Source: an uncultured bacterium (GTDB lineage: Bacteria; Cyanobacteriota; Vampirovibrionia; Gastranaerophilales; Gastranaerophilaceae). Taken from it: DNA of 47,554 nucleotides. The stretch spans positions 1 to 47,554 of the forward strand of contig CADAYD010000011.1 in assembly GCA_902791985.1 (NCBI GenBank), read 5' to 3'. Position numbers and translations under genes: made by a program. Positions 1,474 to 4,191 of the stretch are shown piece after piece. Position 1 is the stretch's first letter, and each line of letters starts with the position of its first letter. Under the pieces are notes generated by a model. The model was not told the origin of the DNA, did not search any database, and worked only from the letters and a program-made list of their open reading frames with translations.

Positions 1474-3522
1474 ATGAAAATAATTGAAATCAGAAATAAC
1501 TTAATCAAACTATCATACAATGAAGATGAAAGACCTACGCTGGGTCAATTTATTGCTTTAACCGGAGAAGAGAAATCTTATGTTGCCCAGTTTGTTAATT
1601 TGAAAGCGGATAATATGAATAATTTTGCCGTTGCAAAATTGATGTTTTCATTCAGCAAAGATGGTGTTGTAAGTGAATACGACGGATCGACTCCGAGTAT
1701 TAATAGTAATATTGTCCCGCTTCCGGCAAACGAACTTTTATCTTTGCTTCCGGTGGAAACTCCAATAAAAATAGGTAGAATTTCAGGTTGTTCGGATGAA
1801 TTAAATTTGGATATATCTCTTTTTGAACATAATTTTACTGTATTCTGTGAAAATGATTATGAAAAAGCGACCGTTATTTCAAATTGTGTAAGACAATTAT
1901 TCCGAATGAAAGAAAAAAGTGTCATTATTGATATTGATTCCATTTTTGAAGATTATCCAAAATTGTCAGTCGGACAAGATTTTAAATTACCGCTCAATTC
2001 AGATTTTATAGATTTTATATTTGAACATGAATTAAAAGGGGTAGATACTCCGACAAAAGCTGTTATTAAGGATATATTCTATGCCGTTCAACAATATATC
2101 AAGACTCTGGATGATGAGTTTCTGTCTATAGAAAGTCTTATTGATGTTGTAACAGCACAGTACAAAGAAACACAAATGCCGGAGCTTGCTCTGTTAAAAA
2201 ATAAACTTCTAAAATATAGAGATAACGGAATTTTTGCAAATGAAGCAACAGAATTTCAATATTTGGAAAATAAACTTCAAGACAGAAACTGTGTGGTTGT
2301 AAACTTGAAAGATATTGATGCAGAATTACAAAAAGATGTAATAACTTTTATTCATAAAATTATAGAAAAATTTGATAAATATGTTTACTATTTTGTGCCC
2401 TTAACGGATGATAATTCTGATAAAAAATTGATAAAAAGACTTATAAATCATAATCATGTATTTACAACAATGTTTGTAAGTCACAGTTATAAATACGCTT
2501 CAGAATTGAAATCACATGCACAAGAAGTTATGTTCTTTGCTCCGCAGACAATGCAGAATGATTTTGCCGCATATAATACATTTTTGAATAAGCTAAATCC
2601 GGCTGAAGGTGTAATTTATGGTAAATTAACTCAAGGTATTCCTATAATTATTAATCTTGAAGATTTAGAACTCGATTTAACAAAAGAAGATGTATTTGGC
2701 GACAGACAAAGATTTGTTCCCGCGATAGAAGAAGATGTTCTTACAAGTAATGACATCTATGCAATAAACAATTTACAAGAGGCTCCAGTACTTGAACAGG
2801 ATACGCTTAAAACTTCGCAAACTCAGGACTTTGTTGATTATCAGTATGAACAGGATACTGCTCCGCAACAATCTGAAGCGCTTGAAAATTATACAGAAAC
2901 AGAAAATGAGAATGAAGAGAACTATGATGAGGATTCTAAAACGATTGAGCCTGTAGAAAATGTTCTTGCAGATGATTATGATAATGTATCAAATGAAGTT
3001 GAAACTGCTACAGCAGAAGAAGTTGAAGAAATGGACGAAGTTGAAGAGGTCGGGAACTTGGAAGAAGTTAGCGAAATTGGTGAAGTTGAAACTTCAGATG
3101 AAAAAGATGATTTATCTTTTATGGATGATTTCGCATCTCAAAGTGAAGAAGAAGCTCAACCGGTTCAAGATTTTCCTGAATCTGATGCTGCAGACCAGCT
3201 CACTGAGGATGATTTGGATTTTATCGAAAATAATCAAGAAACTCAGAATGATGAGAGTGATTCATCAAATGAAAGTTTATCGGAGTCAGAAGCTGACGAT
3301 AATCCTCCGGTTGTTCCTGTATATAATACAGATGAAGGGAAAGAAGTTTCCGGTGTGAATATTGGGATTAAGGCCGGAGATCAGATATCTCACCCAAGAT
3401 ACGGAAATGGTGTTGTTGAAAAAATCATTAAATACGGGAATAAAACTTTGTGCTCAATAGATTTTGAAAACGTTGGCAGAAGATTATTAGACCCGTCTGT
3501 CTCTGATTTTGAAAAGATTTAA
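1474..3522 (+). CDS. HerA-like ATPase-derived protein lacking Walker A, with acidic linker and C-terminal Tudor-like domain
   Basis: Product of unknown function, 682 aa. Residues 1-105 resemble the HAS-barrel of HerA/VirB4-type ATPases. Residues 118-155 follow the HerA core pattern: FEHNFTVFCENDYEKATVI sits where HerA has HfaVlGxTGSGKST, and SVIIDIDSIFEDY sits where HerA has the Walker B/DpHGEY strand. The GxxGxGK[ST] loop is gone. Later strands (CVVVNLKDID, VFTTMFVSHS) also match the HerA order. Residues 440-630 are a highly acidic, low-complexity linker rich in Glu and Asp. Residues 631-682 (GDQISHPRYGNGVVEKI...IDFENVGRRLL) match the small barrel at the C-terminus of UvrD/PcrA helicases. 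The RBS is gaggggc before the ATG. The HerA relationship is my inference from motif order. No catalysis is expected without Walker A. Confidence 0.6.
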   Translation: MKIIEIRNNLIKLSYNEDERPTLGQFIALTGEEKSYVAQFVNLKADNMNNFAVAKLMFSFSKDGVVSEYDGSTPSINSNIVPLPANELLSLLPVETPIKIGRISGCSDELNLDISLFEHNFTVFCENDYEKATVISNCVRQLFRMKEKSVIIDIDSIFEDYPKLSVGQDFKLPLNSDFIDFIFEHELKGVDTPTKAVIKDIFYAVQQYIKTLDDEFLSIESLIDVVTAQYKETQMPELALLKNKLLKYRDNGIFANEATEFQYLENKLQDRNCVVVNLKDIDAELQKDVITFIHKIIEKFDKYVYYFVPLTDDNSDKKLIKRLINHNHVFTTMFVSHSYKYASELKSHAQEVMFFAPQTMQNDFAAYNTFLNKLNPAEGVIYGKLTQGIPIIINLEDLELDLTKEDVFGDRQRFVPAIEEDVLTSNDIYAINNLQEAPVLEQDTLKTSQTQDFVDYQYEQDTAPQQSEALENYTETENENEENYDEDSKTIEPVENVLADDYDNVSNEVETATAEEVEEMDEVEEVGNLEEVSEIGEVETSDEKDDLSFMDDFASQSEEEAQPVQDFPESDAADQLTEDDLDFIENNQETQNDESDSSNESLSESEADDNPPVVPVYNTDEGKEVSGVNIGIKAGDQISHPRYGNGVVEKIIKYGNKTLCSIDFENVGRRLLDPSVSDFEKI

Positions 3523-3627: not shown

Positions 3628-4191
3628 ATGTATCCAATAAGTTTTAGTGCAAGTCTTAAATCAGATGATGTAACAATCCAATCACGAAAAGGAAGAAAGA
3701 TTGTTCCTAAACAAGCGTATATTGTTGAGCTTAAAAAGAATGGAAATGATTTGAAATCTTTGTATAATCTTTCGTTGCTTTGGGACAAAGAAGGTAAAAA
3801 TCTTGTTCCGTATTTGTTGTCCGATTTTATTAAAGATATTGATGAAAAACCTGATGTAAATGATGAACATTGTTTTGCACTTACGCTTCAAGATAGTGAC
3901 TTTGAGAATATAAAGCCTGAAAAAATATTGGGAGTTTCTCTTTTTTCGGAAGAAGATATAGAAAACGAAATAAATTGGCTTCAAGTTCAACCTAAAAATA
4001 ATTCGATTTTTGAACCCGCAAACAGAGAATACGAAGATGTAGGAACGGCAATTGTTGATTATTTGAAAGCACAATATGCAGGGAAATCTATGTATGCAAA
4101 TGTTTCGGCAGGAGCAATAGATTTTTATAGAAAGCAAGGATTTAAGTCTTATGATAAAAAATTCCCTTGTTCAATGTATTTTAAGGTTTAG
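3628..4191 (+). CDS. GNAT-family N-acetyltransferase-like protein
   Basis: 187-aa protein of unknown substrate. The C-terminal half has a GNAT layout: a strand (KILGVSLFSEED) that would be the central beta strand, an acetyl-CoA-binding helix region (EDVGTAIVDYLKAQY), then VSAGAIDFYRKQGFKSYD, the usual 'A..FY.k.GF' end of GNAT proteins. The canonical R/QxxGxG/A loop is not clear, so acetyl-CoA binding is uncertain. The N-terminus (PISFSASLKSDDVTIQ) is not part of the family. The ATG has no obvious ribosome binding site. It stands alone, converging on aroH with a 4-nt gap. Confidence 0.55.
   Translation: MYPISFSASLKSDDVTIQSRKGRKIVPKQAYIVELKKNGNDLKSLYNLSLLWDKEGKNLVPYLLSDFIKDIDEKPDVNDEHCFALTLQDSDFENIKPEKILGVSLFSEEDIENEINWLQVQPKNNSIFEPANREYEDVGTAIVDYLKAQYAGKSMYANVSAGAIDFYRKQGFKSYDKKFPCSMYFKV

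Follow-up and report, generated by a model that had tools for sequence, protein, structure and literature searches.

An order-wide HerA-like protein with a degenerate ATPase site and a PcrA/UvrD-type Tudor tail in non-photosynthetic cyanobacteria

The window, that is, the whole 47,554-nucleotide stretch of DNA analyzed here, contains at 1474-3522 (+ strand) an open reading frame of 682 codons with an ATG start, as the initial annotation had stated, whose product we term pseudo-HerA. We are highly confident that it is an ATPase-dead protein derived from HerA, with good support both for the fold and for the destruction of the motor site. Given the HerA shape and a destroyed ATP site, pseudo-HerA is probably a scaffold rather than a motor, and on balance we favor a scaffold/adaptor protein with a Tudor-docked partner, leaving that partner open. 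Four further points are inferred from the evidence below: that ATPase activity is absent, how the protein oligomerizes, that it binds UvrB, and what it does in the cell. The gene and its segments are as follows.

1474-3522, + strand: pseudo-HerA gene, 682 aa, comprising a HerA-like, very probably dead ATPase, an acidic linker, and a Tudor tail (order-wide orthologues)
1474-1743, + strand: HAS-barrel-like N-terminal beta domain, residues 1-90, boundary approximate (beta strands in the model; HerA alignment from residue 1)
1849-1869, + strand: degenerate P-loop ENDYEKA, residues 126-132, at the Walker A position (paired with GTGSGKS by hhalign)
1921-1947, + strand: VIIDIDSIF, residues 150-158, strand end equivalent to DxHGEY (hhalign)
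1999-2283, + strand: helix bundle inside the RecA-like core, residues 176-270 (helices 176-186, 192-211, 219-233, 236-250, and 258-270 in the model)
2290-2400, + strand: RecA-like strands, residues 273-309, including VVVNLKD and the Walker B strand VYYFVP (Pfam, model, alignment)
2668-3375, + strand: acidic linker, residues 399-634, 236 aa (D+E 32%, K+R 3%)
3376-3519, + strand: PcrA/UvrD-type Tudor domain, residues 635-682 (PF21196, PDB 9dqs, PMC5397179)

The AlphaFold (AF2) model of residues 1-398, a single-chain prediction, had a pLDDT of 89.3 and a pTM of 0.86. VIA-align superposed it on Sulfolobus solfataricus HerA (4d2i) with Z 27.5 and rmsd 4.0 over 378 residues, and the HAS barrel, the RecA-like core, and the inserted helix bundle were all found, in the order seen in HerA, the archaeal and bacterial HerA–NurA DNA-end resection translocase (DUF87). 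The match to VirB4 (4ag6) reached Z 21.9 over 293 residues, with the HAS barrel region outside it, and the top Foldseek matches of the model were HerA chains (E 7e-17, with many more behind). By itself the window protein scored no HerA model in a Pfam-type profile search; the profile of its relatives recovered HerA in a PDB profile search (E 1e-6), 10 of 22 relatives matched DUF87 (best 2e-9), and hhalign aligned the pseudo-HerA family with canonical HerAs from sister orders of the class (L129-L144) over 393 columns (E 1e-8). The initial annotation had read a HerA-type protein with a HAS-barrel-like N-terminus from the order of segments, and the structure prediction that it proposed as a check upheld this reading: the model matches HerA over its full length, helix bundle included, and the relatives' profiles gave the same fold rather than an unrelated one. 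Searched directly against Pfam, the window protein matched SepF best (PF04472, E 1.6e-5, residues 259-299), which would suggest a SepF-like or cell-division protein. However, this match covers just 41 residues, scores 25.5 bits against a cut-off of 27, comes from the VVVNLKD strand within a strand-helix of the HerA RecA core ("VIDLSGL"), and recurs in 3 of the 22 relatives versus the 10 that match HerA. Because the score is below the cut-off and the overall fold is that of HerA, we rejected SepF membership and find this explanation scarcely credible.

The nucleotide site of this fold is degenerate. HNFTVFCEN (residues 119-127) had been placed at the P-loop position and VIIDIDSIF at the DxHGEY position, and hhalign, which pairs ENDYEKA with the GTGSGKS of canonical HerA, agreed with both placements. 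The reported lack of GxxGxGKS extends to the sampled members of the order: Walker A (GxxGxGK[ST]) occurred at the P-loop position in none of 70 distinct sequences, so that no orthologue retaining it was found, and the lone regex match (L041), at residue 28, is unrelated to that position. In the same 70 relatives, glycine was never seen at P-loop positions 126, 128, and 130, and 64 carry an acid at 126, the first P-loop glycine. The Walker B acids are mostly lost (P/K/D/N then L at 309-310, with an acid at 309 in 12/70, the register being taken from the strand end), as is the GRK arginine of HerA. These losses set pseudo-HerA apart from HerA. In the S. solfataricus enzyme, replacing the equivalent lysine (K154A) is by itself enough to abolish nucleotide binding, and it also perturbs the binding of dsDNA (PMC5715905); the ATPase activity of Deinococcus radiodurans HerA requires K175, the corresponding lysine, and D487/E488 (PMC9960219). 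Taken together with those single-lysine mutants, the P-loop and Walker B losses make it likely that ATPase activity has been lost from pseudo-HerA. The site is not featureless, and a strongly diverged HerA that is still an ATPase, relying on K131, D153, and an atypical phosphate-binding loop, would account for the K/R kept at 131, the Walker A lysine, in 51/70 relatives and for the strand-2 aspartate D153, which is invariant (70/70) and whose equivalent in D. radiodurans HerA, D220, is named as the catalytic residue (PMC9960219). Against an active enzyme stand the missing glycines, the acid at the first of them, and the loss of most Walker B acids and GRK arginines, and we consider it very improbable. 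Some nucleotide contact through K/R131 and D153 may nevertheless persist, which counts against reading the protein as a dead scaffold.

Retention of the full HerA protomer fold, HAS barrel and helix bundle too, would also suit an ATP-independent DNA ring, a hexamer at forks or chromosome ends that would encircle or cap the DNA, acting as a clamp or roadblock, while its tail recruits helicase partners. HerA can oligomerize without nucleotide (PMC5715905), and the D. radiodurans protein is a stable hexamer (PMC9960219), yet in S. solfataricus HerA the P-loop change K154A disturbs the binding of dsDNA (PMC5715905) and the DNA-loop lysine of HerA, K363, is seemingly absent at the aligned position in the PDB profile alignment. 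We regard such a ring as doubtful. In the scaffold/adaptor reading that we favor, pseudo-HerA would be a pseudo-translocase, having the HAS barrel, core, and bundle of HerA without HerA-style ATP binding and hydrolysis, and would serve as a structural platform in which the ring is possibly retained.

What pseudo-HerA has gained relative to HerA is the acidic linker and the Tudor tail. The linker, which the initial annotation correctly described as acidic, is 236 residues long rather than the 190 it gave; across the order (69 proteins), linkers range from 11 to 628 aa (median 243) with 26-38% D+E and 0-7% K+R, and the linker is probably disordered. An ORF of 132 aa, rich in lysine and methionine, overlies it in another frame (2960-3358, + strand) and seems to be a by-product of the linker's richness in GAA/GAT codons. 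The tail of the window protein scored 21.5 bits against PcrA_UvrD_tudor (PF21196), under the Pfam cut-off of 23.9; several orthologues exceed that cut-off (25.3-34.1 bits, best E 7.6e-8), and the tail also matches PDB 9dqs. Comparing the tail with PcrA thus bore out its earlier assignment as PcrA/UvrD-like. It is the best conserved part of pseudo-HerA and, as in PcrA/UvrD, forms a barrel of about 50 aa behind a long linker; it shares 47% identity with its counterpart in a class-level UvrD (L062), although here it is carried by a pseudo-HerA and not by an SF1 helicase. PcrA requires each of H681, W684, K712, and L714 for RNAP binding (PMC5397179), and these correspond by spacing to H640, Y643, R670, and L672, with conservative W-to-Y and K-to-R changes, all four being nearly invariant across the order. 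The host retains its own UvrD with a separate, more diverged tail (L170). In the order's UvrD the tail reads GKKAMDAS/GKKAVDAN (L170:894-2543 in G000, L167, and L168), the pseudo-HerA tail keeps the form GRRLLDP, and sister-order UvrDs have GKRLLDP. A division of roles between the order's UvrD tail and the pseudo-HerA tail is possible.

We considered which partner such a tail might bind. In PcrA, the Tudor recognizes a TGE hairpin that is present in SI1 of RpoB and in UvrB (PMC8318588). The host UvrB has IDQVSGEII at residue 227, with the glutamate at 233 as in Bacillus subtilis; its beta-hairpin helicase interaction motif (HIM) reads SGE and not TGE, which counts against UvrB docking. In RpoB (1109 aa in the host genome, about 1108 aa in the order) no HIM match was found in SI1, and the TGE/SGE elements sit near residue 100 and near the C terminus. 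With the binding motif present in UvrB and absent from RpoB SI1, UvrB is the better candidate, and the kept Tudor residues, taken with this UvrB motif, suggest repair partners more than the replisome. The Tudor might instead dock to RNAP in the manner of PcrA, CarD, or Mfd, placing pseudo-HerA at the transcribing enzyme; the kept PcrA RNAP-binding positions and a weak match of the tail to CarD_TRCF_RID fit this, but the RpoB of the order lacks the HIM in SI1 (a comparison covering the PcrA-type HIM mode, as distinct from the beta1-lobe mode of Mfd/CarD), and we judge it unlikely. We think it fairly probable that pseudo-HerA tethers something through its Tudor domain, and we propose UvrB as the main partner tentatively. 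Tudor domains of the same fold have many partners, which counts against the Tudor-docked reading. The long acidic tether would present the Tudor flexibly for docking on the HIM of UvrD/PcrA partners and, with UvrB as the likeliest of these, pseudo-HerA could take part in nucleotide excision repair, or in another process linked to UvrD, either as an adaptor or as a competitor. The initially proposed scaffolding role at DNA or the replisome is likewise something we infer.

Orthologues were present in all 59 sampled genomes of the order, a sixtieth match (G059) being left out of this count as a UvrD tail, and in 143 of 240 genomes of a class-wide sample; outside the order, no orthologue was among the matches listed for the phylum sample. 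The recurrence of all segments order-wide excludes chance. Phage and plasmid searches returned no match, on which ground we rejected a phage or plasmid origin, and for want of a PADLOC match we also rejected a defence system. Pseudo-HerA is under purifying selection, with dN/dS of about 0.1 (N domain 0.04-0.11, tail 0.06-0.20, linker 0.16-0.28; these values are rough, with dS close to saturation in most pairs), on which basis we rejected a decaying gene.

Canonical HerA appears to be absent from the sampled genomes of the order. We detected no canonical DUF87 protein in the genome of the window, whereas all 14 control genomes were positive. Strong HerA matches in the class sample fell in families f8, f10, f11, and f12 (two further same-family matches were weak), and canonical HerA occurs in sister orders, usually accompanied by NurA: NurA was above the cut-off in 6/8 sister genomes with canonical HerA versus 0/8 genomes of the order. 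A search for homologues that keep Walker A, as proposed in the initial annotation, yielded only these canonical HerAs of sister orders and no orthologue in the order. DUF87 ORFs of 400-440 aa in families f9, f14, and f15 were rejected as Walker A orthologues, lacking the HAS barrel and reaching an hhalign probability of 2% against the pseudo-HerA family. These ORFs (L145-L160) encode a conserved, Walker A-positive HerA-like ATPase whose C-terminal part includes a stretch resembling a coiled coil; it may represent a separate HerA-like family.

The host genome is 1.9 Mb, the GC content of the window is 28-38%, and close relatives are rumen assemblies. The photosystem reaction-centre family PF00124 was found in 0/6 tested genomes of the class versus 6/8 same-phylum genomes outside it, indicating that the class consists of non-photosynthetic cyanobacteria. 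The order, one of gut bacteria, is probably Gastranaerophilales (Melainabacteria). Two genes precede that of pseudo-HerA in the arrangement nadD-yqeK-X, where X is pseudo-HerA and the gap after yqeK is 67 bases.

233-829, + strand: nadD, upstream neighbour (TIGR00482, E 1e-47)
810-1406, + strand: yqeK, an HD-domain Ap4A hydrolase gene, upstream neighbour (TIGR00488, E 1e-38)

The nadD-yqeK order is kept at six family f1 pseudo-HerA loci; nadD does not adjoin canonical HerA loci, so synteny with them was rejected. Downstream, a 187-aa GNAT-like protein (3628-4191, + strand; weak Pfam match) is a neighbour in just one other sampled locus (L065). In families f2-f5 the neighbours are a gene that we take, from its own sequence, to be comM/yifB, divergent from pseudo-HerA in 12 loci, and that of a 153-aa protein, which lies directly upstream of pseudo-HerA in 10/10 sampled genomes having it (L047:1030-1488, L043:4889-5374, and 8 more loci) and is missing from the genus of the window. 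The model of the 153-aa protein (pLDDT 86) shows a long N-terminal helix and a beta sheet, with no Pfam match above cut-off and no PDB fold match at E 0.001. No repair gene was in an operon with pseudo-HerA among the loci examined, which counts against the scaffold/adaptor reading.

Dead NTPase copies are common, and pseudo-HerA is a variant of HerA that we did not find described: our literature search returned no account of a stand-alone, motor-less HerA conserved throughout an order and joined to the docking domain of a helicase. The dead domains of EccC/EssC are extras beside active ones in a membrane motor, whereas that of pseudo-HerA stands alone. The likeness is that the degenerate FtsK/HerA-type ATPase domains of EccC/EssC in type VII secretion are reported to be inactive members of the same superfamily maintained by selection (PMC11154593).

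Pseudo-HerA offers a naturally occurring test of HerA-ring functions other than DNA pumping, and of the PcrA/UvrD Tudor as a portable recruitment module. A more speculative view, which we advance only tentatively, is that the order lost the HerA–NurA resection motor while the HerA ring became an ATP-independent DNA-repair hub, recruiting UvrD partners or competing for them through a captured helicase Tudor. If this were true, the pseudo-translocase would be a core, conserved component of these cells.
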